From positions 1 to 28,306 of the IMG/VR virus record IMGVR_UViG_3300050029_000047: 28,306 bases of DNA; one strand, given 5' to 3'. The DNA is from a virus. Shown here one piece after another: positions 4,597-28,306 of the stretch (the first letter of the stretch is position 1; every line of letters begins with the position of its first letter). A program made the translations under genes and the position numbers. Below the pieces are notes generated by a model, which saw only the letters and a program-made list of their open reading frames with translations, had not been told where the DNA came from and did not search any database.

Positions 4597-4934
4597 TGGA
4601 CGATGTAACCAGACAAGCGCTACTCAGCGCAACCCGCACCCTGCTAGCAGCGGCTGGCGCATGGATGGCGACGCACAAGTACATCGACGCCGGCGCAGCC
4701 GATCAGATCGTAGGCGCAGTGATGGTCATTATCCCGATCGCTTGGGGCATGTGGCAAAAGTACAGCGCCGAGAAGAAAACGGCCGTCCGAGAAGTTGCTG
4801 CGGTCAATGCGGGAGCTGCGGCAGCAACAATGGGCGAAGTCGGTCCCACTGTGCGAACTGTCGACGTGCCCCAGATTATCGAGAAGTTTTCACCACCCGT
4901 AGTTCAACAACCGAAAGGAGCAACGCCCGCATGA
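4596..4934 (+). CDS. Putative holin, Pam3-gp28-like
   Basis: 112 residues beginning MDDVTRQALLSATRTLL. The first ~60 residues hold two hydrophobic stretches around a YIDAGAADQIVGA turn and end in IAWGMWQKYSAEKK. That layout is typical of the Pam3-gp28 family of putative phage holins. The C-terminal half is a hydrophilic A/V/P-rich tail ending in QPKGATPA, longer than in many family members. It starts inside the previous stop (TGATG) and its own stop overlaps the next ATG (ATGA). Being two genes before the endolysin supports a membrane-permeabilising role in lysis. Confidence 0.7.
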   Translation: MDDVTRQALLSATRTLLAAAGAWMATHKYIDAGAADQIVGAVMVIIPIAWGMWQKYSAEKKTAVREVAAVNAGAAAATMGEVGPTVRTVDVPQIIEKFSPPVVQQPKGATPA

Positions 4935-5302
4935 ACGCACTCGCGTCGTTTTTAGCACTACTCAATCCCTGGGCCTGTCTATTGGTTCAGGCCGTAACGA
5001 TGGTCGAACAGATCGCGCCGAAGGCCGCTACGCCTCCGACCGGACCGGACAAGAAAGCTGCGGCAGTCGCGGCTGTAATTACGGCAATCAATGTCGCGCC
5101 GGCTATCGGGCAGGAAGTAACCGATCTACAGGCCGCCATCAAGACGAACGACCCGGCTACCGTCACCGCTGGCATCGGCCACGGCATCGAAATGGCGCTG
5201 TCTATCTGCCGTGCGTTCGGGATATTCTCGAAGGCGGGGATTGTGCAGGCGGCGGCACCGTTGGCTACGGCTCCGGATAATAGCCTGACCCTCGGCGGCT
5301 AA
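4931..5302 (+). CDS. Small alanine-rich protein in lysis cassette
   Basis: 123 residues. The N-terminus (MNALASFLALLNPWACLLVQAV) is hydrophobic and may be a signal anchor. The rest is alanine-rich helix with the segment VTDLQAAIKTNDPATVTAGIGHGIEMALSI split over its middle. AAGGAG lies about 10 nt before ATG, and the start overlaps the holin stop by ATGA. I do not recognise a named family. Position between the holin candidate and endolysin suggests a lysis accessory such as an antiholin or spanin-like protein, but no lipobox is seen. Confidence 0.6.
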   Translation: MNALASFLALLNPWACLLVQAVTMVEQIAPKAATPPTGPDKKAAAVAAVITAINVAPAIGQEVTDLQAAIKTNDPATVTAGIGHGIEMALSICRAFGIFSKAGIVQAAAPLATAPDNSLTLGG

Positions 5303-5315
5303 ACGTCCACGCGCC

Positions 5316-5786
5316 GTGAACCGTTCCGACTTGCAGGCGGCGCTCGAACAGCCAAACGTGCGCGCCTTCCTGAAGGCGATCCGCCTGGGCGAGGGCACCT
5401 CAGACGATGCAGGCTACTATCGCATCGTCGGCGGGGGCGCCTTCACTGACGACGCGCAGCACCCGAATGTGCGCGTTTGGATCGAACGGTACAAGGTCTA
5501 TTCAACCGCGGCGGGCGCTTACCAGATCATCAACCCCACATGGCGCGCGCTGCTCAAGCAGTACGGCTTCCCGGATTTCAGCTCGGATTCACAGGATGAG
5601 GCGGCGGTCGCCCTGATTGCCGGCCGTGGGGCGCTCCAGGACGTGCAGGATGGCCGGTTTAAGGAGGCCGTGGCGAAGTGCAGCGCTGAATGGGCGAGTC
5701 TGCCGGGTAGCGCCGCAGGCCAGCGCGTCGAGGCGTACGATGCAGTCCTGGCCGTGTATCAGCAGAACGGCGGGACGGTGGCTTGA
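5316..5786 (+). CDS. Endolysin, GH104 lambda-R-like lytic transglycosylase
   Basis: 156 residues starting at GTG. The sequence follows phage lambda R closely in order: FLKAIRLGEGTSDDAGYYRIVGG, a DDAQHPNVRV segment, STAAGAYQIINPTW, DFSSDSQDEAAV, and CSAEWASLPGSAAGQ near the end. Glu26 in the GEGT motif corresponds to the catalytic acid of lambda R. The enzyme cleaves the MurNAc-GlcNAc bond of peptidoglycan, forming 1,6-anhydro ends. There is no signal peptide, so it needs a holin such as the product of 4596-4934. No strong ribosome-binding site precedes the GTG, so expression may depend on coupling to the upstream genes. Confidence 0.92.
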   Translation: MNRSDLQAALEQPNVRAFLKAIRLGEGTSDDAGYYRIVGGGAFTDDAQHPNVRVWIERYKVYSTAAGAYQIINPTWRALLKQYGFPDFSSDSQDEAAVALIAGRGALQDVQDGRFKEAVAKCSAEWASLPGSAAGQRVEAYDAVLAVYQQNGGTVA

Positions 5787-5787
5787 T

Positions 5788-6054
5788 GTGGTCCCCGGCT
5801 CCCCTGAATGGTGGGAAGCCGTCCGCCGGGAGCATAATGAGTTCTGGACGAAGATCGGCGCTAGGGGTGTGTGGGGAAAGTTTGCCGTCCATATCCGCAA
5901 AACGGCGCCCGCCAATGCGAAAAGGATTCCTCCACTTCCCAGGTCGCGCACACTTGATTGTATTCGGCGGCATCTTCCATCCCTTCTTGCGCGAAAGCTG
6001 GACACGGATAGGCTTACTCACGATGCCACCGTAAAGCAAATTGAACATTTATAA
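5788..6054 (+). CDS. Uncertain small ORF after the endolysin
   Basis: GTG 5788 lies 2 nt after the endolysin stop and opens an 88-residue frame containing PGSPEWWEAVRREHNEFW, which looks like genuine helical protein. After about residue 38 it runs antisense to a DUF4326-like remnant, and the amino-acid pattern becomes less natural. An alternative start in another frame, ATG 5786 in a TGATG overlap, gives an 82-residue product of unnatural composition. No ribosome-binding site supports either. It may be a real gene shortened or fused at its 3' end where two modules meet. Confidence 0.35.
   Translation: MVPGSPEWWEAVRREHNEFWTKIGARGVWGKFAVHIRKTAPANAKRIPPLPRSRTLDCIRRHLPSLLARKLDTDRLTHDATVKQIEHL
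5908..6021 (-). pseudogene. DUF4326-like N-terminal remnant
   Basis: Read leftward from GTG 6021, the frame gives SKPIRVQLSRKKGWKMPPNT followed by a CARPGKWRNPFRIGG segment. This is the conserved N-terminus of DUF4326 phage proteins (GWxMPPNTxxVxRPxxWGNPFxxG). Downstream the frame stays open to 5659, but the sequence no longer resembles the family: the usual C-terminal cysteine motif is missing and it runs antisense into the endolysin. I therefore read it as a truncated relic. It lies where rightward and leftward transcription units meet, a likely module-exchange point. Confidence 0.5.
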
Positions 6055-15130: not shown

Positions 15131-16132
15131 TCATTGGCGCGACGTGGCCGTTCTCAATCGCTTCGCCTTATTCGATTGCGCCGCGTCGATCCATTTGAAG
15201 ATTGCGGCCATGACTTCCGAGCAAACGCCGTTCCCGCACAGCTTCACCTTTTCCCGGCGGCTGCCGTGCGGCAGAAGATGCTCTTCGCCGCCACCCATCG
15301 CCTTGAGCAATTCGCTCGGTTGAAGCATCCTTAAATAGGGCTCCCCCTTTCGCCAAGTGACCAAGCCGAATCGGTCGATAGTGGTGACAGTGCGCAAGGG
15401 CACATCAAGTGTTTGCCAACCGCCGGCATAGTCGGAGCCGTAGTAGACAATTATGAACGGGACGTTTCGCCCTATCGCAGAAATCGCTCGATTGGCTCGT
15501 TCAAGGGTTCCTTTCGCCCTTCCCGCCTTGCGCAGACGGCCCGATAGGTACGGCGCTTCCCAATCGACGACATCATTGGCCGTGAGTGGCTTGTTGTCCG
15601 ACAATACCAGCAGATCTTCGCGGGTAACCAGGGTACCCTTCCTGTCGCAGATCAAGAACATCCGCTTTCGTGCCTGGGCCGATCCAAAATCGGCAGAATT
15701 GAGGAAGAGATTGCTAACTGCGTACCCCAACCCTTCGATGGTCTCCACCAGTTCGTTGTACCTGTCCCACTTTTTCATCCTGTTTACGTTTTCGACAATG
15801 ACCCAGCGCGGTTCCATCGACTCAATCCATGGAACGATACCGATTGCAGTCTCGCGACTACTTTCCGCCCCCGGCTTGGCTCCACGGGCGATAGAGTGCG
15901 CCGTGCACTCAGGGGAAGTCAAAAGAACATCCGGTCTGTAGCGCCGACCCAGTTTGCCGGCGTCCACATTTTCTATGTAGTCGGTAATGACATCCGATTT
16001 CGGAAAGTTGGCCTTGTAGGTCTTCGTGGCCAATTGCCATGCATCCAATCCCAACAAAGGCGTACCCCCACCCCGCACGGCGCCTCTGGCTCCGAATCCC
16101 CCACCGCAAAACAGGTCGACAAAGGTTGGCAT
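15131..16132 (-). CDS. DNA (cytosine-5) methyltransferase
   Basis: 333 residues with the motif order of C5 methyltransferases: motif I FVDLFCGGGFGARG (4-17, SAM binding), motif IV SPECTAHS with nucleophile Cys76, motif VI ENV at 114-116, motif VIII QARKR at 153-157, motif IX RTVTTIDRFG, and motif X GNGVCSEVMAA near the end. Motif IV is PEC rather than the usual PPC. It would methylate C5 of cytosine in a short target, perhaps to evade host restriction. No cognate nuclease is adjacent. It runs opposite to the flanking replication genes, with paired palindromes upstream. Confidence 0.93.
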   Translation of the reverse strand: MPTFVDLFCGGGFGARGAVRGGGTPLLGLDAWQLATKTYKANFPKSDVITDYIENVDAGKLGRRYRPDVLLTSPECTAHSIARGAKPGAESSRETAIGIVPWIESMEPRWVIVENVNRMKKWDRYNELVETIEGLGYAVSNLFLNSADFGSAQARKRMFLICDRKGTLVTREDLLVLSDNKPLTANDVVDWEAPYLSGRLRKAGRAKGTLERANRAISAIGRNVPFIIVYYGSDYAGGWQTLDVPLRTVTTIDRFGLVTWRKGEPYLRMLQPSELLKAMGGGEEHLLPHGSRREKVKLCGNGVCSEVMAAIFKWIDAAQSNKAKRLRTATSRQ

Positions 16133-19117: not shown

Positions 19118-19948
19118 ATGTACCTGATCGCAGAAATCGGAATTAATCACAACGGCAGCGAGGAATTAGCGAAGGCAATGATAAAATCCGCTGCTGATGC
19201 AGGATTTGACGCGGTGAAGTTTCAGAAGCGCACGATTGACAAGTGCTATACAAACGCTTTCCTTGATTCTCCTCGTGATTCTCCTTGGGGTACAACGCAG
19301 CGCGAGCAGAAGATGGCGCTTGAATTCACGCGAGCGAAATATGATTTCATTCACAGCTATTGCCGTGACGTTGGAATTGATTGGAGCGCGAGTTCATGGG
19401 ATATTGATAGCCAAGATTTCATCGCGAGTTATCATTGCGCGTTCAACAAAGTCGCATCACCCATGCTCAGCCATAAGCCGCTGTTGCATAAGATCGCCAC
19501 CGAGGGCAAGCGCACGTTTATCTCTACCGGCATGTCCTTTCTACGCGAGATTGACGAGGCAGTAAATATATTCACACAAGCCAATTGCCCGTTCGAGTTG
19601 ATGCATTGCAATTCCACGTACCCGATGCCGGACGATCAGGCGAACCTGCTGTGTATTCCGATGCTGCGCGAGCGGTATCAATGCGACGTGGGCTATTCAG
19701 GCCATGAAACGTCGCTCATCAAAGTCTGCGTTGCTGCTGCCGCGCTTGGGGCCACTTCAATTGAGCGGCATATCACGCTTGACCGGGCGATGTACGGCAG
19801 TGATCAGGCGGCGTCGATTGAAACGCACCACCTGAAAGACTTCGTTGAGGCTGTGCGCGCTGTGCCGGCGATATTGGGAAATGGTGTAAAGATGATTGCG
19901 GACAGCGAAGCGCCGGCGAGGGCGAAACTTAGACAGGAGGTAGCGTGA
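19118..19948 (+). CDS. NeuB-family nonulosonic acid synthase without SAF domain
   Basis: 276 residues from ATG 19118, preceded by a perfect AAGGAGG site; the upstream in-frame ATG 19076 is not used. The family pattern is complete: AEIGINHNG (5-13), AVKFQKR (32-38), ISTGMS (135-140), MHCNSTYP (162-169), VGYSGHE with metal ligand His196, and SIERHITLDRAMYGSD with metal ligand His218. Such enzymes condense phosphoenolpyruvate with an N-acetylhexosamine to give sialic, legionaminic or pseudaminic acid-type 9-carbon sugars. The usual C-terminal SAF domain (~60 residues) is missing. The exact substrate cannot be told. The next gene overlaps its stop. Confidence 0.88.
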   Translation: MYLIAEIGINHNGSEELAKAMIKSAADAGFDAVKFQKRTIDKCYTNAFLDSPRDSPWGTTQREQKMALEFTRAKYDFIHSYCRDVGIDWSASSWDIDSQDFIASYHCAFNKVASPMLSHKPLLHKIATEGKRTFISTGMSFLREIDEAVNIFTQANCPFELMHCNSTYPMPDDQANLLCIPMLRERYQCDVGYSGHETSLIKVCVAAAALGATSIERHITLDRAMYGSDQAASIETHHLKDFVEAVRAVPAILGNGVKMIADSEAPARAKLRQEVA

Positions 19949-20238
19949 TTAAATGGCTAAATGCGTTTAGGTGTTCGCCGCATAGCGTTTGCAGCATGTG
20001 CGGCGTTCATTTCGAGCCTGTTCCTGTTCAAGAGGAAAGGTGGAAGCGCTTGTGCGAGCAACATCGGCGTCCGTTGATTAATGAATGGCTACGCATGGAA
20101 ATGGTTGCAGGATGGGCGCGTGACAATTGGATAAAACTGGAACCGATTATGGTAGAGGAGAAGCAGAAGGAATATTACAAGCGCAGAGCTAACTTTCACG
20201 GTTTATCGCAGTCAGAAGCCGAACATTATGCTTCCTAA
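19945..20238 (+). CDS. Small cysteine-motif protein between NeuB and radical SAM genes
   Basis: 97 residues from GTG 19945, overlapping the NeuB stop as GTGA with AGGAGGT just upstream. The N-terminus contains CSPHSVCSMCGVHF and a later LCEQHRRP, giving a possible zinc site (C...CxxC...CxxH). The rest is helical (INEWLRMEMVAGWARDNWIK). Tight coupling to the NeuB homologue suggests joint expression, but no family is recognised and a role in sugar synthesis is unproven. Confidence 0.6.
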   Translation: MIKWLNAFRCSPHSVCSMCGVHFEPVPVQEERWKRLCEQHRRPLINEWLRMEMVAGWARDNWIKLEPIMVEEKQKEYYKRRANFHGLSQSEAEHYAS

Positions 20239-20303: not shown

Positions 20304-21098
20304 TTGTTTATGAACATCGCGCAGCTAAACATCGAGCTATCCAGCCGCTGCGACCGGAATACGCTGTGCGGCTTCTGCGGTCACCAGGATCGCAAGACGA
20401 ATCCGAACCTCAAGCTCGGGGATATGGACTTCGCCATGCTTCAATCCATTGCCGAGCAGGTTCCAGCAGACACAATCATTTCATTTCACAGGGACGGAGA
20501 CCCGCTTGTATATCCACGGCTCAGAGAAGCATTGCAATTGTTCCGCCATCATCCAACGAGTATTGTCACTCACGGCGAAGTATTGGGGCGTCGTGCTGCG
20601 GAAATAATAGACAACTGCACCACGGTCACGGTCAGCGTGATACCGAACGATAAGGACCGAACATTGCAGCTTGAGTCCGTGCGCGCATTCCTCGCCGCCA
20701 AAGGTGATCGACCGCCACAATTGCAACTGAAAGCGGTCGGTAATGTGGACGATATTTCGGCTTACGAATCCCTTGGCGTGCCGATCATCGGGCGTTCCCT
20801 GCACAACAAGCGCGTGAATCAGAACTATCAATCCGCTCCGTCCATCCCTGAAATCCGTGTCTGCTTGGACTTCCTCAGTCGCCCGACCGTGGACTGGCAG
20901 GGCCGCATGTTCTGTTGCAACCGCTTGGACACATCGGACGCTGGCCTGATCGGGGATTTGCGCCAGGACACGCTAAGGAATGTCTGGAATGGGCCTAGAA
21001 GGCGCGCAATGCTCGAAGCGCACCTCGCGGGAAGGCGCGACCTTGCGAACGCTCTATGCGCTTCCTGCACGTTTTGGGGAATACCGTCAGAAACTTGA
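20304..21098 (+). CDS. Radical SAM/SPASM-like enzyme
   Basis: 264 residues from TTG 20304 (GGAG 7 nt upstream); ATG 20310 is the alternative. The N-terminus LNIELSSRCDRNTLCGFCGH gives Cys16, Cys22 and Cys25: a CX5CX2C cluster motif instead of the usual CX3CX2C. A TIISFHRDGDPLVYP strand-loop fits the TIM-barrel GE region. C-terminal cysteines (187, 204, 205, 252, 255), with DWQGRMFCCNR, GDLRQDTLRNVWNG and CASC, match a SPASM-type auxiliary cluster domain. Such enzymes use S-adenosylmethionine radicals on peptides, sugars or metabolites. Substrate unknown. Confidence 0.8.
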   Translation: MFMNIAQLNIELSSRCDRNTLCGFCGHQDRKTNPNLKLGDMDFAMLQSIAEQVPADTIISFHRDGDPLVYPRLREALQLFRHHPTSIVTHGEVLGRRAAEIIDNCTTVTVSVIPNDKDRTLQLESVRAFLAAKGDRPPQLQLKAVGNVDDISAYESLGVPIIGRSLHNKRVNQNYQSAPSIPEIRVCLDFLSRPTVDWQGRMFCCNRLDTSDAGLIGDLRQDTLRNVWNGPRRRAMLEAHLAGRRDLANALCASCTFWGIPSET

Positions 21099-21123
21099 CA
21101 GTGTTGTAAATTCGGCATATAAA
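21095..21123 (+). promoter_or_regulatory. Strong sigma70 promoter before the co-chaperonin/packaging operon
   Basis: TTGACA (21095-21100), a 17-bp spacer and TATAAA (21118-21123). The -35 box overlaps the stop of the radical SAM gene. The predicted start is about 25 nt before GTG 21154. It should drive the GroES-like, terminase, portal and scaffold genes. Confidence 0.75.
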
Positions 21124-21153: not shown

Positions 21154-21468
21154 GTGTTCCGCCCTTTGTCCGACTACATCCTGGTTCGCCCCATTCCACG
21201 AAAGCAATCCGACCTGCTGTGGGTAGCGCCTGAGAAATTCAATCGCGGCGTCGTCCTCGCTTGCGGTCCTGGTGAGCGGCTCAAGAAAAAGAACGGTGAA
21301 GAGACCGGCGCAATCCGTCAGATGGAAGTTAAGCCTGGTGACTTCATCACTTACGGCGACCTGGATTGGATATTCCCCAAGTTCGACGAAGGCGGCGTTG
21401 AATATCGCATCTTGCAGGAAAAGGATGTGACGTTCATTTCCGAGCAGCCTTTCGAGCAGGCCGCGTAA
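21154..21468 (+). CDS. GroES-like co-chaperonin
   Basis: 104 residues from GTG 21154 with GGAGG 4 nt upstream. It reads FRPLSDYILVRPIPRKQSD, then NRGVVLACGPGE, an acidic/basic mobile-loop region, VKPGDFITYGD and EYRILQEKDVTFI. This order matches GroES/Cpn10, including the RPLxDxxLVRP opening and the KPGDxxxYxD strand. T4 gp31 and related phage co-chaperonins replace GroES to fold large capsid proteins in GroEL. It is the first gene of the packaging and head operon, which supports a role in coat folding. Stop overlaps the next gene as TAATG. Confidence 0.85.
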   Translation: MFRPLSDYILVRPIPRKQSDLLWVAPEKFNRGVVLACGPGERLKKKNGEETGAIRQMEVKPGDFITYGDLDWIFPKFDEGGVEYRILQEKDVTFISEQPFEQAA

Positions 21469-21782
21469 TGTCTGAGGCCGACGGCAGGTTTGAAGTAGGG
21501 AAAGGCGGTAAAGGCGCACCGCTCGGCAATCACAACGCGACGAAGAACAAGCCGTTCTGGGAAGCGGTAACGCGGGCGATTAAGCAGGAGGATGGCAAGC
21601 GCTTGCGCGAAGCCGCAGAGCAACTGCTGACAGCGGCAGCGAATGGCGAACCGTGGGCAATCAATACGCTGGCCGATAGACTGGACGGCAAGGCGCATCA
21701 AAGCGTTGATATCGCCAACCCGGACGGAACCGGGATATTCACGCATATCGAGCGCGTGATCCTAAAGAATGACAAAGCTTAG
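21468..21782 (+). CDS. Terminase small subunit-like protein
   Basis: 104 residues. It starts MSEADGRFEVGKGGKGAPLG and contains NHNATKNKPFW followed by helices (AIKQEDGKRLREAAEQLL, GEPWAINTLADRLDGKAHQ). This is a common type of small protein immediately before phage large terminases, usually annotated as small terminase or DNA-binding. It would recognise the pac site and recruit the large subunit. It overlaps the large-subunit gene by 14 nt and starts inside the co-chaperonin stop. Confidence 0.7.
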   Translation: MSEADGRFEVGKGGKGAPLGNHNATKNKPFWEAVTRAIKQEDGKRLREAAEQLLTAAANGEPWAINTLADRLDGKAHQSVDIANPDGTGIFTHIERVILKNDKA

Positions 21783-22986
21783 GATAGAGACTGCGCCCGC
21801 CTTCGAGTGTCTGCTCTATCCGGCCCGCTACAAGGGCGCACACGGCGGACGCGGTTCAGCAAAATCCCATTTCTTCGCCGGGTTGATGATTGAGGAAAAC
21901 ATCGCCCGCAAGCAGGATAATGTGTGCTTGCGCGAGATGCAGAAGTCTTTGCAATTCTCGGTTAAGAAACTGCTAGAGCAGAAGATTGAGGATATGAATG
22001 CGGGCATCTATTTCGAGGTGCAGGACAAGCGCATTCTGACCCGGCATAACGGCGTGATCATCTTTGAGGGGATGCAAAATCAGACAGCCGAAAGTATCAA
22101 ATCGCTTGAAGCTTTCGACCGCGCATGGTTCGAGGAAGCGCAAACCGCGAGTCAAAAAAGTATTGATATCTTGCGCCCCACAATCAGAAAGCCCGGTTCA
22201 GAAATGTGGTTCAGTTGGAACCCGAACAAGGCGACCGATCCTGTGGATGCGCTTCTACGCAGCAAAGTTCCGCCGCCTGATAGCGTGGTTATCGAGGTAA
22301 GCTACCGTGACAATCCGTGGCTCCCTGATGTTCTGATTCAGGAAATAGCATATGACCAGAAACGTGATCTGGATAAGTTCGCCCACGTCTGGCTTGGTGG
22401 ATATCAGAAGCATTCCGGAGCTAGAGTCTTTACAAACTGGCGCGTTGATGAGTTTGATTCTCCCGTCGGTTCATTATTTCGGATGGGAGCTGATTGGGGA
22501 TTTTCGGTCGATCCGTCATGTCTTATCCGAGGTTACACGGAGGGACGCACCTTGTACGTGGACCATGAAGCCTGGATGATTGGCTGCGAGATAGACCAAC
22601 TTCCAGACCTATTTGACCGTGTGCCAGATTCCCGCAAATGGTTCATCACCGCAGACAGCGCACGGCCCGAGACAATCAGCTACATGCAGAACCACGGCTA
22701 CCCGAAGATAAACGCCGCGATCAAGGGGCCGAAGTCAATCGAGGATGGCGTTGAATTCCTGAAGTCCTATGACATCGTTGTGCATCCGCGCTGCACACAC
22801 GTCATTGACGAACTATCGAGCTACAGCTACAAGATTGATCCGCAGACTGAGCAAGTGCTGCCGGTGCTTGAGGATAAGAAGAATCATACTATAGACGCGC
22901 TGCGTTATGCCTGCGAGGGATTGAGGCGCGCCCGCAAACCGGCTCCACCGCAGAAGGTGGAAGAACCTATGGGATGGATGAGTTAG
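21769..22986 (+). CDS. terL: Terminase large subunit
   Basis: 405 residues. The ATPase part has Walker A GGRGSAKS (26-33) and a Walker B-like FDRAWFEEA. The nuclease part has GADWGFSVDPS, FITADSARPET and KNHTIDALRYA, three acidic motifs of the RNase H-like nuclease. This matches the PBSX-type large terminase family (about 400-450 residues). It powers DNA packaging into the procapsid through the portal encoded two genes on and cuts the concatemer. The ATG lies inside the small-subunit gene. Confidence 0.92.
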   Translation: MTKLRIETAPAFECLLYPARYKGAHGGRGSAKSHFFAGLMIEENIARKQDNVCLREMQKSLQFSVKKLLEQKIEDMNAGIYFEVQDKRILTRHNGVIIFEGMQNQTAESIKSLEAFDRAWFEEAQTASQKSIDILRPTIRKPGSEMWFSWNPNKATDPVDALLRSKVPPPDSVVIEVSYRDNPWLPDVLIQEIAYDQKRDLDKFAHVWLGGYQKHSGARVFTNWRVDEFDSPVGSLFRMGADWGFSVDPSCLIRGYTEGRTLYVDHEAWMIGCEIDQLPDLFDRVPDSRKWFITADSARPETISYMQNHGYPKINAAIKGPKSIEDGVEFLKSYDIVVHPRCTHVIDELSSYSYKIDPQTEQVLPVLEDKKNHTIDALRYACEGLRRARKPAPPQKVEEPMGWMS

Positions 22987-22989
22987 GCT

Positions 22990-23220
22990 ATGAACAACAA
23001 TGACCCGTTTGTGTTGATGGCACGCACTGAAAAGGCAATGACAAAGCCTAATCTTGAATTGGACATGCTGCGCAACTTTTATGCTTGTTGGGAATCCCTG
23101 CATGATATCAAAGGAGATAAGCGTAATCCTGAGATAAGATCGCAATACGAAAATGCAGCGCAAGCCTTAGTTGACGCGGCGCATCCATTGCGGGCATTGA
23201 GGAAAGATAATGGCAACTGA
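22990..23220 (+). CDS. Small helical protein between terminase and portal
   Basis: 76 residues starting MNNNDPFVLMARTEKAMTKP, then helices (LDMLRNFYACWESLHDIKG, YENAAQALVDAAHPLRALRK). It starts 4 nt after the terminase stop and overlaps the portal start by 11 nt. Short proteins at this place are common in podophages; no function is known to me. Confidence 0.6.
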   Translation: MNNNDPFVLMARTEKAMTKPNLELDMLRNFYACWESLHDIKGDKRNPEIRSQYENAAQALVDAAHPLRALRKDNGN

Positions 23221-25291
23221 CGTACAAGAGGCAATTGAATTCCTGCGCGTTGCCAATGACGCGAGTTCGGACAATGTAGCGCGCGGCGAACTAGCCCTAC
23301 GCTTTCGATACGGCGACCAGTGGCCTGCGTATGCTTCCGCCTCTCGTGGTCTGGAACGCCCGCAGTTGACGATCAACGAGACGAACACGTACATCAAGAA
23401 AGTCTGCAATCAGCAGAGACAGCAGAGGCCGAGGGGAAAGGCATCTCCGGTTGATAGCTTTGCCGATCCGAAGATTGCCAAGGTCATTACCGGGCTTGGA
23501 AGGCATTGCGAAGTGAATAGCGATGCAGACAATGCTTACGATACCGCATTTGACTTCGCTGCAACGATTGGCTGGGGCTATTGGCGCATTCGTACCGACT
23601 ATATCAGCGAGGATCGGTTCGATCAGGACGTATTCATTGATGTGGTCAATAACCCGCTAGGCGTCCGGTTTGACCCTGATAGCATCCTGCCTGACGGTTC
23701 AGACGCCGAAAGATGCTTGCTGCCAACATGGATACCGAAGGCGCGATTCAAGAAAGAATGGCCCGGTGCGCAGCAGTCAGACTTCCAGATGGGCGATGGG
23801 AATAATGTACAGGATTGGATGACAACGAATGATGTATTGATTGCCGAGTTTTTCAAGGTCGAGCGCAAAGCCGCCAAGCTGGTGATGCTGTCTGACGGTA
23901 ATCCGGTATGGGAAGATGAGGCCAAGAGACTGTACGAATCCGGCCTACTCGCCATGCATGGCCTTACCGTTGCAGGCGAACGCGACAGCTTCAAGCGCAT
24001 CGTGAAGTGGGTAAAGCAGTCCGGTGCTGATGTACTTGAGGAAAAGACGCTACCGGGCCGCTGGATTCCAGTGGTTCCGGTCTATTGGTCAAGGGTTCGC
24101 ATTGACGGCAAGGACGTTATCCGAGGCCTGGTCTATGACGCTATGGACCCGCAGCGCATGGTGAACTTCTGGCAGACTAGCATCACGGAAACGCTTGCCT
24201 TAGCGCCTAAGCCGAAATGGTTGATAGCTGAAGGGCAGGACGAAGGCCACGAGGTAGAGTGGAAGAATGCCAATATGTCAGCGACTCCGACACTGCGGTA
24301 CAAGCCTACGGACGTAACCGGAAAGCCTGTAGCTCCGCCGCAGCGCATAGCGCCTGAGCCGCCCCCCTCTGGAGCGATAGAAGCCGCTTTCCTTGCCTCG
24401 CAGAACCTATCCCGTGTGATGGGCATATTCGACCCAGGCGTGCGTGGTGGCGCACAGCACAAGTCAGACAAGACGCTGAACGCAGAGCAAGGCCAGTCGG
24501 AAATGACTAACTTCGACGGCTACGATAATCTAGTCAGGTCGATCAAGCATAGCTGGCGCATCATGCTGTCCTACTTCCCTGTGGTCTATGACACGCAGCG
24601 AGCCGCTAGGATCATAGGTGCAGATGGGCGCGAGGAAATGGTTACGCTCAATGAGCGCACGCAGCAACGGGACGAGACCGGGCAGGCTATAGAAAAGGTG
24701 CTGAACGATATCACTGTAGGCACCTATGATGTGGTGATGGAAACCGGCCCGGGCTATCAGACGCAGCGCAAGGAAGGCGTTGTTGCAATGATGGAACTGT
24801 TGAACACGCCATTGGGTGAGAAAGTCGCGCAGGTTGGAGATGATCTTGTAGTCCGTGAAATGGACTTCCCAGGCGCTGATGTGCTCGCCGACCGCCTAGC
24901 CGCGGCTAATCCTCTAAGCCAAGTGGACGAAAAGAGCGATATACCGCCTAAAGTACAGATGCAGTTGAAAGCGCAAGAACAGCAGATTCAGCAACTACAG
25001 CAGCAATTGCAAGCTGCTGGCATGGAAATCAAGTTCAAGGCAGGGATTGCCGACAAGAAGAATCAGACTGATCTAGCTAAGGCGCACATGGCCGCAGTAA
25101 CCAAGGTGCACGACACAGAAACGTGGGCCGCGCAGGATAGCAAGCAATCTGACAAAGACAATGAAACGAAAGTGCTAGTCGAGGAAATCAAGGGCCATAT
25201 CGCCCTTCTGCTTGCGAGGATTGATGAGCGTACAGCAGAGAAAACCGCAGAGAAAGCTGAGAAATCCGAGAAACAGGAGGCAACACAATGA
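23210..25291 (+). CDS. P22-like portal protein
   Basis: 693 residues, in the size range of P22 gp1 (725), with GAGGAAAG just before ATG. Portal-type sequence blocks include FRYGDQWPAYASASRGLERP, QLTINETNTYIKKVCNQQRQ, YWSRVRIDGKDVIRGLVYDA and MGIFDPGVRGGAQHKSDK. The last ~110 residues are a Q/E/K-rich coiled coil (KAQEQQIQQLQQQLQAAG onward), a barrel or tail-like extension seen in this family. It forms the dodecameric ring through which DNA enters and leaves the head. The stop overlaps the next ATG (ATGA). Confidence 0.9.
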   Translation: MATDVQEAIEFLRVANDASSDNVARGELALRFRYGDQWPAYASASRGLERPQLTINETNTYIKKVCNQQRQQRPRGKASPVDSFADPKIAKVITGLGRHCEVNSDADNAYDTAFDFAATIGWGYWRIRTDYISEDRFDQDVFIDVVNNPLGVRFDPDSILPDGSDAERCLLPTWIPKARFKKEWPGAQQSDFQMGDGNNVQDWMTTNDVLIAEFFKVERKAAKLVMLSDGNPVWEDEAKRLYESGLLAMHGLTVAGERDSFKRIVKWVKQSGADVLEEKTLPGRWIPVVPVYWSRVRIDGKDVIRGLVYDAMDPQRMVNFWQTSITETLALAPKPKWLIAEGQDEGHEVEWKNANMSATPTLRYKPTDVTGKPVAPPQRIAPEPPPSGAIEAAFLASQNLSRVMGIFDPGVRGGAQHKSDKTLNAEQGQSEMTNFDGYDNLVRSIKHSWRIMLSYFPVVYDTQRAARIIGADGREEMVTLNERTQQRDETGQAIEKVLNDITVGTYDVVMETGPGYQTQRKEGVVAMMELLNTPLGEKVAQVGDDLVVREMDFPGADVLADRLAAANPLSQVDEKSDIPPKVQMQLKAQEQQIQQLQQQLQAAGMEIKFKAGIADKKNQTDLAKAHMAAVTKVHDTETWAAQDSKQSDKDNETKVLVEEIKGHIALLLARIDERTAEKTAEKAEKSEKQEATQ

Positions 25292-26319
25292 CTGATGCAG
25301 TAGAAGTACAAGCCCCGCCGATTGGTGCCGTAGAAGGGCGTCCCGGCGTGACAGTCGTAACGCAAGAGAATTGGAACGGTTACGTTGATCAGCAAGTCGG
25401 CGCGCCTGCCGAGGTTGTCGTAAATGATGATCTCGAGGAAGTTGCAGCCGCAGAAGCCGCGGTTATTGAGGAACAGCAAGCCGCCGCGAAGGTTGAAGCA
25501 GAAGCGCCTAAAGAGGGAGACATTAAAGGCGCGGACGTATTCTTCAAGGGTAAATGGGTAAAGAAGCATGACTTCAATTACCGCGTCCACCTGAAAACCG
25601 GGGAAGCTAAGGCCGAACTACAGGCCAAGATAGACGCAACAGCAGCCGAAGCCAAGACAGCCAAGGAAACCGCCGCTACCGCCGCCAAGGAGCGTGACGA
25701 GCTCCGCGCCAAGTATGAGCCGCCCGCATCGCTTGATCCTGGCGCAGAGCCGAACGAAGCCAATTATCAGGATATGGCGAAATTCAAAGCAGACTATCGT
25801 GAATGGGCAGCTAAATCTGCGCGAGCCGAGGATTCAAAGCAGCGTCAGGAAGCGCAGGCAAAAGCAGATACAGAAGCAGCGACGAAACGCTGGCGGGCAT
25901 CTGAGGCAGAACTGACCGCAGAAATACCAGACTATGCGCAACGGCTTGCCAATGCTCCGGGCGCAGCTATCGGCGTATCCAATGAATTACGCGACGCCAT
26001 TTTCGATAGCGACAACGGGCCGCGCCTGCGCCTGCATTTAGCCGAGAATCCGGAAGTCTTGCGGGCGTTGCTCGAAATGCCGGTAGGTAGAATGATGAAA
26101 CAGGTCGGAAAACTAGAGGACTCTATGGGTAAAGTAGAAGTCGCTCCGGCCAAGAAAGGCAATACGCTGGCCGATGTGCAAATGTCTAAGGCACCCGCGC
26201 CAATTACTCCTATTCGTGGGGGCAATGTTGTCACCGGCCTGAAGATCGACGCGGCAGGAAATTGGACCGGAACACCAGAGGAATTCAAAGCAGCGAGGCT
26301 GGCCGGAAAGATCAAGTAG
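25288..26319 (+). CDS. Scaffold-type head assembly protein
   Basis: 343 residues, acidic and A/E/K-rich, with a long predicted coiled coil (ELQAKIDATAAEAKTAKET and onward). It contains DVFFKGKWVKKHDFNYRVHL and ends with GNWTGTPEEFKAARLAGKIK. Charge, composition and position between portal and coat genes match P22-like scaffolding proteins, which direct coat assembly and then leave the head. It starts inside the portal stop. Its stop overlaps the GTG start of the NeuA-like gene by one base, tying that foreign-looking gene into the head operon. Confidence 0.75.
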   Translation: MTDAVEVQAPPIGAVEGRPGVTVVTQENWNGYVDQQVGAPAEVVVNDDLEEVAAAEAAVIEEQQAAAKVEAEAPKEGDIKGADVFFKGKWVKKHDFNYRVHLKTGEAKAELQAKIDATAAEAKTAKETAATAAKERDELRAKYEPPASLDPGAEPNEANYQDMAKFKADYREWAAKSARAEDSKQRQEAQAKADTEAATKRWRASEAELTAEIPDYAQRLANAPGAAIGVSNELRDAIFDSDNGPRLRLHLAENPEVLRALLEMPVGRMMKQVGKLEDSMGKVEVAPAKKGNTLADVQMSKAPAPITPIRGGNVVTGLKIDAAGNWTGTPEEFKAARLAGKIK

Positions 26320-26969
26320 TGGTCACAATTATTCCGGCGCGGGGCGGCAGCAAGGGGCTACCCGGTAAAAATATCCGCATGTTCTGCGGCAAGCCGCTCT
26401 TAGCGTGGTCAATCCTGCAAGCGCCGGAACCGGTCTATGTTTCCTCGGATGACGATGAAATCCTGGCCGTAGCGCGTGAATATGGGGCCACAGGCATCAA
26501 ACGACCGCCTGAGCTTGCCACTGATACCGCCTCAAGCGAAAGCGCGTTGCTGCACGCCCTAGACACGATTGGCGATGTGGATAAAGTCGTATTCCTGCAA
26601 CCTACTTCGCCTCTTCGCTGGCATACGGACGCAGTCCGGGCGATCAAACTATTCGACGATAGCGGCGCGGATTCACTCTTTTCCTGCTGCGAATTGGAGG
26701 ATTTCTGCGCGTGGACTGAGGATAACGGAACCTTACGCGGATTGACATTTGACCCGTTCAATCGCGGCCGTAGGCAGGATCGCAAGCCGATCCACCTTGA
26801 AAATGGTTCAATCTACATCTTTAAGCCTGAAGTCCTACGAAAAGGCAACCGGCTAGGCGGGAAAGTGGTGCGTTACCCTATGCAATACTGGCAATCTTTC
26901 GAGATTGACGATCAAGAGACGTTTGACCTATGCCGCTTCTATTTCAGGCGCAAGGAACTAGACCTATGA
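26319..26969 (+). CDS. NeuA-like CMP-acylneuraminate cytidylyltransferase
   Basis: 216 residues from GTG 26319. The nucleotide-binding motif IIPARGGSKGLPGKN (4-18) is the hallmark of CMP-sialate synthetases and relatives. VVFLQPTSPLR, LENGSIYIFKP and SFEIDDQETFDLCRFY follow in the usual order. Such enzymes transfer CMP from CTP to a keto-acid sugar such as sialic, legionaminic or pseudaminic acid, giving the donor used by sialyltransferases. It overlaps the scaffold stop (TAGTG) and the next ATG (ATGA). The NeuB homologue at 19118 could supply its substrate. Confidence 0.87.
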   Translation: MVTIIPARGGSKGLPGKNIRMFCGKPLLAWSILQAPEPVYVSSDDDEILAVAREYGATGIKRPPELATDTASSESALLHALDTIGDVDKVVFLQPTSPLRWHTDAVRAIKLFDDSGADSLFSCCELEDFCAWTEDNGTLRGLTFDPFNRGRRQDRKPIHLENGSIYIFKPEVLRKGNRLGGKVVRYPMQYWQSFEIDDQETFDLCRFYFRRKELDL

Positions 26970-27922
26970 GGCTCGTCAATTTCAATGGGCAGTTGATTCC
27001 GGAGTCGCGCGCCAAGATTAGCATTTACGATTCAGCGCTCATGTTTGGTGACATGGTATTCGAGATGACGCGCTCATTCAACGGCAAGCAATTCAAGCTG
27101 CGCGAGCATCTGGAGCGCCTCTATTCCGGAATCAAGATACTGCGTATTCCTGTCGGTATCGACATTGACGAAATGGAACGCCGCTGCCACGAAACACAAG
27201 AGGCTAACCAATTCGCTCCGGATGATGAGCATCGGCTGATGATAGATGTTTCGCGTGGAACGCTAGGTATATATCAGGATGTGGTCGGGCTACACAAAGG
27301 CCCGAATATAATCATTTCCGACTTCCCATTGCGCTGGACTGTTGCCGGCATGGGCCATCTTTTCGATTCCGGCATCAATGCGGTTATTCCAAGCCAGCGG
27401 GCCATACCGGCGAGCTTGCTTGACCCTAAGATCAAGAACCGCAGCCGGATTCACTATCAGATGGCAAATATCGAAGTTTCGCAGACTATGGGCGAGGATA
27501 ATTGGGCGCTATTGCTTGATCCTGATGGAAATATTGCAGAGGGAACGGGGGATAACTTTTTCATCATCAAAGATGGTTCCCTGATAACACCGGAACCGCG
27601 CAATATTCTGAGGGGGATTAGCAGGGATTACGTTATGCGTTTAGCTGGCTTGCAGGAATTGGGTTTAGAAGTAGTGGAGCGCAATATCAGCCCTTACGAC
27701 GTATATACCGCCGATGAAGCATTTATGACTGGCACGCCGTTCTGTATGCTGCCGGTCTGTACGCTGAATGGTATTCCGATTGGATGCGGCACGCCGGGGA
27801 CATACTATCAATCGATCCTTGGATATTGGTCAACTTTCGCCGGCGTGGACATAAAAGCACAAATCAAGGCTTGGGATAGCGGGAAAGCGGGAAATGGCCC
27901 AACTCCGTACCAATTCGCCTAG
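26966..27922 (+). CDS. Class IV (fold-type IV) PLP-dependent aminotransferase
   Basis: 318 residues from ATG 26966, which overlaps the NeuA stop. The N-terminus (FNGQLIPESRAKISIYDSAL, then MFGDMVFEMTRSF) and REHLERLYSG fit the branched-chain/D-amino acid aminotransferase family. Lys157 in KIKNRSRIHYQMANIE is the probable PLP-binding lysine. Downstream are NIAEGTGDNFFIIKDG, TPEPRNILRGISRDYV and DEAFMTGTPFCMLPV, in family order. Members act on amino acids and keto acids; the nonulosonic pathways I know use DegT-type enzymes instead, so the substrate here is open. Last gene before the coat promoter. Confidence 0.88.
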   Translation: MRLVNFNGQLIPESRAKISIYDSALMFGDMVFEMTRSFNGKQFKLREHLERLYSGIKILRIPVGIDIDEMERRCHETQEANQFAPDDEHRLMIDVSRGTLGIYQDVVGLHKGPNIIISDFPLRWTVAGMGHLFDSGINAVIPSQRAIPASLLDPKIKNRSRIHYQMANIEVSQTMGEDNWALLLDPDGNIAEGTGDNFFIIKDGSLITPEPRNILRGISRDYVMRLAGLQELGLEVVERNISPYDVYTADEAFMTGTPFCMLPVCTLNGIPIGCGTPGTYYQSILGYWSTFAGVDIKAQIKAWDSGKAGNGPTPYQFA

Positions 27923-28088: not shown

Positions 28089-28306
28089 ATGGCACAAGAT
28101 ACCCTTCTAACCATTTCCATGATCACCAACGAAGCGTTGATGGTTCTGGAAAACGAACTTACCTTCGCGGGTAATGTTTCGCGCAAGTACGACGATTCAT
28201 TTGGAATCGACGGCGCGAAGATTGGCGACACAGTCAATGTCAAAAGGCCGCCGCGCTTCATCGGCACCAGCGGCCCCGCGCTGAACGTCGAAGATTATAA
28301 CCAGAC
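28089..28306 (+). CDS. P22-like major coat protein, N-terminal part (cut by right edge)
   Basis: The frame runs off the right end after ~72 codons. It starts MAQDTLLTISMITNEALMVL and continues with ENELTFAGNVSRKYDDSFG, AKIGDTVNVKRPPRF and ALNVEDYNQ. This matches the N-terminus of the P22 coat protein family (xxITNEALRxLENxLxFxxxVNRxYDxxFxxxGAKIGDTxxIRxPxR). GGAG lies 9 nt before ATG. The complete protein would be expected at 400 residues or more. It is the main building block of the icosahedral head and a probable client of the GroES-like protein. Confidence 0.85.
   Translation, partial: MAQDTLLTISMITNEALMVLENELTFAGNVSRKYDDSFGIDGAKIGDTVNVKRPPRFIGTSGPALNVEDYNQ

Follow-up and report, generated by a model that had tools for sequence, protein, structure and literature searches.

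A radical-SAM enzyme with a predicted twitch domain and its sugar-enzyme partners among phage head genes

The window analyzed here (28,306 nucleotides, the whole stretch taken from virus record IMGVR_UViG_3300050029_000047) encodes a radical-SAM enzyme (rSAM) whose gene is linked to sugar enzymes in phage late regions. The best supported reading is that it belongs to an optional oxidize-and-aminate module on a phage pathway to a CMP-activated, nonulosonate-like sugar. We give an even chance to the specific proposal that the protein, a twitch oxidoreductase, is the dehydrogenase half of an oxidize-then-aminate pair in a phage pathway of the nonulosonic acid (NulO) type, with the sugar put on the virion. 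The argument draws on the cluster sites, fold class, partner set, late-gene location and co-loss of the rSAM and an aminotransferase, all of them taken from sequence comparison. The features of the window are as follows.

15131-16132, minus strand: C-5 cytosine DNA methylase (PF00145)
19118..19948, plus strand: NeuB-family synthase, 276 aa from ATG 19118, NeuB domain only
19945..20238, plus strand: 97-aa, Cys-containing ORF between the NeuB and rSAM genes
20310..21098, plus strand: predicted radical-SAM/twitch enzyme gene, 262 aa, alternative start TTG 20304
21095..21123, plus strand: promoter-like TTGACA-N17-TATAAA, found by eye, overlapping the rSAM stop codon and upstream of the GroES and terminase genes
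21154..21468, plus strand: GroES-like co-chaperonin, first gene of the packaging block
21468..21782, plus strand: probable small terminase subunit, from its position and a weak DUF5681 match
21769..22986, plus strand: terminase large subunit
23210..25291, plus strand: P22-like portal protein
25288..26319, plus strand: head scaffolding protein, directly 5' of the cytidylyltransferase
26319..26969, plus strand: cytidylyltransferase (CTP_transf_3, PF02348), GTG 26319 overlapping the scaffold stop
26966..27922, plus strand: class IV PLP aminotransferase, 318 aa, ATGA overlap with the preceding gene
28089..28306, plus strand: start of a P22-type coat protein gene (weak match, E=0.011), directly 3' of the aminotransferase and cut by the contig end

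An earlier note on this DNA, made from the letters alone, had described an ORF at 20304-21098 that lies two genes after a NeuB homologue and ends in the packaging promoter, and this placement held in full. The frame is open from either TTG 20304, which has AGGAG 7 nt 5' of it, or ATG 20310 to TGA 21098, and the promoter-like sequence at its end was absent from a consensus scan because the scanner demands a final T. Residues are numbered here from ATG 20310 because homologues align from about there; adding two gives the TTG-based numbers of the earlier note. No homologue of the 97-aa ORF was found in relatives. A GroES-like co-chaperonin occupies the same place in Xanthomonas phage PBR31. Only the first 220 bases or so of the coat gene fall within the window contig.

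The description of the protein as radical SAM/SPASM-like was also borne out. SPASM (PF13186) scored 30.6 bits against a Pfam gathering score of 21.5; Radical_SAM (PF04055) gave no Pfam match in the window protein, and the NCBIfam matches were to radical-SAM/SPASM families, all sub-threshold. The GGEP-like motif is DGDP at residues 62-65. The AlphaFold model (pLDDT 81, pTM 0.82) matched the partial TIM-barrel radical-SAM fold of BtrN, EpeE, SuiB and MoaA with a Foldseek probability of 1.00. BtrN ranked first (E=2e-10, TM 0.61/0.64), with SpeY, EpeE, DesII and MoaA below it and CteB and SuiB also listed. BtrN was likewise the best match when the family profile was compared with PDB sequences (E=1e-11). 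The gene product is thus placed in the radical-SAM superfamily, and [4Fe-4S] binding and SAM cleavage are predicted from its sequence and model.

Nearest among known systems is BtrN, the 2-deoxy-scyllo-inosamine dehydrogenase of butirosin biosynthesis (PDB 4M7S/4M7T), the best PDB match by both profile and fold. The two proteins are of the same length class, each with an RS cluster and one auxiliary cluster (predicted in the phage protein), and the last three auxiliary cysteines align directly: Cys203, Cys250 and Cys253 correspond to BtrN residues 187, 232 and 235 in the profile alignment, where the chain as printed is offset by 20 residues. BtrN also has an aminotransferase partner in its own pathway. 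It differs in its RS motif (CX3CX2C, as opposed to CX5CX2C in the window) and in its setting, an aminocyclitol cluster compared with a phage-borne gene accompanied by NeuB and a cytidylyltransferase; identity is about 16% over the fold alignment, which falls short of a close, orthologous relationship. SpeY (PDB 7WZV and others), a twitch radical-SAM dehydrogenase among the fold matches, is less similar than BtrN and belongs to another pathway.

The earlier note had read Cys16, Cys22 and Cys25 (TTG numbering) as a CX5CX2C motif and had noted five further cysteines near the C-terminus. The motif, C-DRNTL-C-GF-C, was confirmed at Cys14, Cys20 and Cys23, and all five C-terminal cysteines are present, at 185, 202, 203, 250 and 253 (187, 204, 205, 252 and 255 from TTG). 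Lack of conservation had been named as grounds for refuting the assignment; on inspection, the seven cluster cysteines (14, 20, 23, 185, 203, 250 and 253) are invariant across 22 distinct viral homologues, and Cys103 and Cys202 are not. The suggestion of several auxiliary clusters did not survive: Cys202 is variable and the second half of the SPASM motif is absent. The seven-Cys SPASM motif is CX9-15GX4C-gap-CX2CX5CX3C-gap-C (PMC6231123). The window protein has CX12GX4C-gap-CX2C, formed by the invariant Cys185, Cys203, Cys250 and Cys253, and no cysteine beyond 253, so that it offers one cluster site and not the two of SPASM, although PF13186 exceeds its cut-off. Since this pattern corresponds to positions one to four of the SPASM motif, the C-terminal domain is assigned from sequence as a twitch domain with one predicted auxiliary cluster and four ligand cysteines.

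The longer spacing of the RS motif did not prove to define the family. CX5CX2C occurred in 16 of 23 aligned rows and CX3CX2C in the other seven, whose genes have the same context, and motif length was rejected as a family signature. A tree of trimmed rows needed a minimum of two changes in spacing; the variant may have had a single origin, and the alignment indicates that it is a tolerated length variant. HcgA of [Fe]-hydrogenase cofactor synthesis has CX5CX2C, binds [4Fe-4S] and makes 5'-deoxyadenosine (PMC10100467), so that such spacing can work. HcgA resembles HydE/HydG and biotin synthase rather than twitch enzymes, and the window-type CX5CX2C arose in a separate lineage, one that also keeps CX3CX2C.

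Homologues of the rSAM were found by way of its neighbors. Single-sequence scans of viral contigs, of 85,000 bacterial and archaeal genomes and of GenBank phages detected none, and the reading that no homologue exists proved false: viral contigs traced through the NeuB gene contained a 66%-identical protein (L005), and alignment-based scans then detected the family in 29 viral contigs. With the window these make 30 rSAM contigs, several of them near-copies, corresponding to about 20 independent cases. A genome scan with a six-row alignment, which was pattern-based and may miss distant members, detected no cellular member, and the subfamily is so far known only from metagenomic viral contigs. 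Plasmid matches were rejected as members, being distant, generic SPASM proteins. The nearest annotated cellular relative is one of these (L171, plasmid CP026658.1, 7929-10027; E=9e-5, 23%); the gene directly 3' of it encodes a perosamine synthetase, so that a radical-SAM enzyme and an aminotransferase are once more paired. Viral contig L009 contains a distant radical-SAM/SPASM gene with CX3CX2C (4880-5803) 4 kb upstream of NeuB, and also has transaldolase- and SIS-like genes.

The linkage of the rSAM to sugar enzymes is well supported by gene content. The neighborhood comparison proposed in the earlier note did reveal constant partners: in contigs with intact flanks, rSAM was always accompanied by NeuB, a cytidylyltransferase and a PLP aminotransferase of class IV or class III. 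The aminotransferase was detected in 28 of the 30 contigs, the other two beginning less than 500 bases from the rSAM gene, and NeuB and the cytidylyltransferase were absent only where a contig was cut on that side. All four enzymes are encoded in the window, in two parts: NeuB and rSAM precede the terminase genes, and the cytidylyltransferase and aminotransferase lie 5-7 kb downstream of rSAM, between scaffold and coat. In relatives the four genes usually lie side by side, either among or beside those for terminase, portal and coat. The type of terminase and of coat protein varies across the window, the L005/L015 group and the L016/L018 group; the cassette has therefore passed from one phage type to another while keeping its late-region position. 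The aminotransferase is of class III in the window relatives L005, L013 and L015 and of class IV elsewhere; two unrelated folds thus fill one role.

Several other features were seen in these contigs. A SIS-domain isomerase is encoded 5' of NeuB in L018, and HNH-type endonuclease-like ORFs lie between or beside cassette genes of L015, L017, L018 and L144. The terminase large subunit of L018 (3642-6251, 869 aa) has an apparent intein insertion (CHDDQTEVLTDIGW... VTPNHDMLYW). The coat gene of L016 (G004, 48347 bases) is split across both contig ends, so this record, though classed as linear, is probably a complete, circularly permuted genome.

The enzymes themselves fit a NulO-type pathway with one departure. 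The window synthase matched PF03102 (E=1e-66, below the NCBIfam equivalog cut-offs), and two predicted metal-binding His and other NeuB residues are conserved in 24 sequences; CMP-sugar synthetases (PF02348) are encoded at 26319-26969 and in all intact cassettes; and the aminotransferase Lys in PKIK is invariant in 25 homologues. The SAF domain is missing from the 276-aa synthase and from the NeuB homologues of the other cassettes. The product may therefore not be a classical nonulosonic acid, and the aldose may be unusual.

The rSAM and the aminotransferase are present or absent together. Seven sister contigs (about four independent, several being near-copies) have the coat gene, a Ser/Thr-rich ORF, a transferase, NeuB and the cytidylyltransferase, and a search of each whole contig (12-48 kb) detected neither an rSAM nor a class III or IV aminotransferase; the rSAM search had no positive control of its own in these contigs, and the same family's profiles did match in related ones. 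Their arrangement is of the following type.

L120:12249-15630 (also L118, L122, L123, L140, L148 and L151), directly 3' of the coat gene: minimal operon of Ser/Thr-rich ORF, methyltransferase-MptE fusion, NeuB and cytidylyltransferase, with neither rSAM nor aminotransferase

The two genes have therefore come and gone as a pair, as would be the case if one enzyme makes the other's substrate; to judge from gene content they behave as a unit.

An all-against-all comparison of four long rSAM phages revealed one extra common gene, encoding an MptE-like protein (PF01973). It was above cut-off in all four of these phages, which were the first to be found, and absent from three of three P22-like phages that lack the cassette. 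A separate search starting from the transferase detected ten contigs, one being the source of the query, and six of the other nine contained rSAM; these carriers were thus reached by a route other than rSAM similarity. In most relatives the transferase is fused to a methyltransferase domain, and the C-terminal half of its profile matches 5MU5, the Maf of Magnetospirillum, a putative pseudaminic acid transferase (PMC9298399). Aeromonas Maf1 is needed for pseudaminic acid on flagellin and binds pseudaminic acid directly (PMC4065374). The PF01973 and 5MU5 similarity belongs to the relatives only, as the window contig ends before the expected site; by analogy with them, the window phage's own transferase is predicted past the coat gene.

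No flagellin gene was seen beside the transferase; a Ser/Thr-rich, virion-like ORF adjoins it instead. This ORF, between coat and transferase, encodes 240-290 aa with 18-24% Ser+Thr, compared with 11-15% in the coat protein. Its model was of low confidence (pLDDT 68) and gave weak fold matches to capsid proteins of KHP30, Pam1 and GP4 (E about 0.1-0.2); the protein is possibly cement-like. L116 (3306-3998) and L139 (13082-13777), which have no MptE-like gene, contain another ORF after the Ser/Thr-rich one that looks by eye like a glycosyltransferase and has an LFLDDDV-type motif. A GT29 sialyltransferase was rejected as the cassette transferase, being absent from all rSAM contigs searched. In other viral contigs, GT29-type, eukaryote-like sialyltransferase genes lie near NeuB (L006:8546-9286 and L008:9332-9958).

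The cassette has much in common with bacterial NulO glycosylation of flagellin (NeuB/PseI/LegI, CMP transferase, Maf), in which a NeuB-type synthase, a cytidylyltransferase and a PF01973 transferase are likewise found beside a structural gene. It differs in lying in a head module, in a NeuB that lacks the SAF domain, in the added radical-SAM/aminotransferase pair, in a transferase that is often methyltransferase-fused and in a proposed acceptor other than flagellin.

From the fold, the cysteines and the gene partners we infer a BtrN-type alcohol oxidation by the rSAM. The substrate and the order of steps are likewise proposals, as is the virion-protein acceptor, for which Ser/Thr content, the adjacency of the genes and the weak capsid fold matches are indirect evidence. 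In BtrN the oxidation of the alcohol is a two-electron step, and the auxiliary cluster is the likely electron acceptor (PMC9012708); the pairing of rSAM with an aminotransferase follows the logic of BtrN, in which an alcohol is oxidized and then transaminated. Acting on a sugar intermediate, the phage enzyme would abstract a hydrogen atom from an alcohol-bearing carbon; the auxiliary [4Fe-4S] cluster would accept the second electron, and a ketone or aldehyde would form, as with BtrN. The PLP aminotransferase would convert this carbonyl product to an amine. Before or after amination, the NeuB homologue would condense the aldose with PEP to a 3-deoxy-ulosonic acid. The cytidylyltransferase would then form the CMP sugar, and the MptE/Maf-like transferase, encoded 3' of the coat gene in relatives, would transfer it to the Ser/Thr-rich virion protein.

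The same sugar pathway could employ the rSAM for other radical chemistry (epimerization, dehydration/deoxygenation or deamination; compare NeoN, AprD4 and DesII), the aminotransferase being independent. The fold search also listed DesII and the epimerase EpeE; peptide epimerases, thioether synthases and MoaA all belong to the twitch group, and neither a twitch nor a SPASM fold predicts reaction type (PMC6231123). We nonetheless regard this reading as unlikely, since oxidation followed by transamination is favored by the dehydrogenase BtrN as nearest match and by the finding that rSAM and aminotransferase occur, or are missing, together. The earlier note had left sugar, peptide and virion protein as possible targets and had seen no obvious precursor peptide. 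Most studied SPASM/twitch relatives do act on peptides, EpeE, CteB and SuiB among the fold matches included, but relatives of the window encode no conserved peptide beside rSAM, the 262-aa protein lacks any additional domain for binding a peptide, and the constant partners are sugar enzymes. The sugar option is thereby favored, the RiPP reading was rejected, and direct modification of a peptide or virion protein by the rSAM is very improbable.

Radical-SAM enzymes and sugars can feature in phage DNA modification systems, and DNA methylases lie near some cassettes (the window, L005 and L013). Synthesis of a hypermodified base or a DNA glycan is nevertheless scarcely credible here: the window methylase is of the C-5 cytosine type and on the opposite strand, methylase types vary among contigs, and the conserved transferase falls in the protein-acting Maf/MptE group. 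Somewhat less remote, if still improbable, is a cassette that alters host surface glycans, through serotype conversion or exclusion of other phages, and not the virion. Phage sugar genes are commonly taken as host surface modifiers (e.g., PMC7029224), and two weakly similar cellular proteins are encoded near surface-glycan genes. Against this, several unrelated phage types have these genes in their late head module and adjoining the coat gene; the transferase resembles Maf and MptE, and the substrates of Maf are proteins in the cytoplasm (PMC4065374); and inspection of the shared genes showed neither membrane export nor a lipid-linked transferase.

Oxidation and amination of a virion-bound sugar, our preferred reading, extends to a broader proposal, to which we give somewhat less than an even chance: that the head genes of several phage types hold a complete virion-glycosylation system, with an rSAM-containing amino-nonulosonate pathway, CMP activation and a Maf-like transferase acting on a capsid cement-like protein. 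Each component is already known on its own: twitch radical-SAM enzymes, pathways to NulO, Maf transferases and glycosylated phage virions. According to PMC12619734, which cites Freeman et al. 2023, mycobacteriophage virions have glycans on capsid or tail tube, and the passages concerned mention no nonulosonate-type cassette or radical-SAM enzyme. A search of the open-access literature, incomplete in coverage, found no report of a phage nonulosonate/radical-SAM/virion system, and there is a credible chance that the combined system is undescribed.

If the proposal is correct, phages would make a dedicated amino sugar for their particles using oxygen-sensitive radical chemistry late in infection, and Maf/NulO glycosylation would extend from flagella to virions. 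It would also yield a new enzyme of the BtrN-like kind, one whose aminotransferase partner is identified. L103, with coat, Ser/Thr-rich ORF, MptE-like, NeuB, aminotransferase, rSAM and cytidylyltransferase genes in a single operon, offers a compact system for testing the action of a twitch dehydrogenase on sugars. Phage glycan coats matter in immune recognition and in contact between phage and host.
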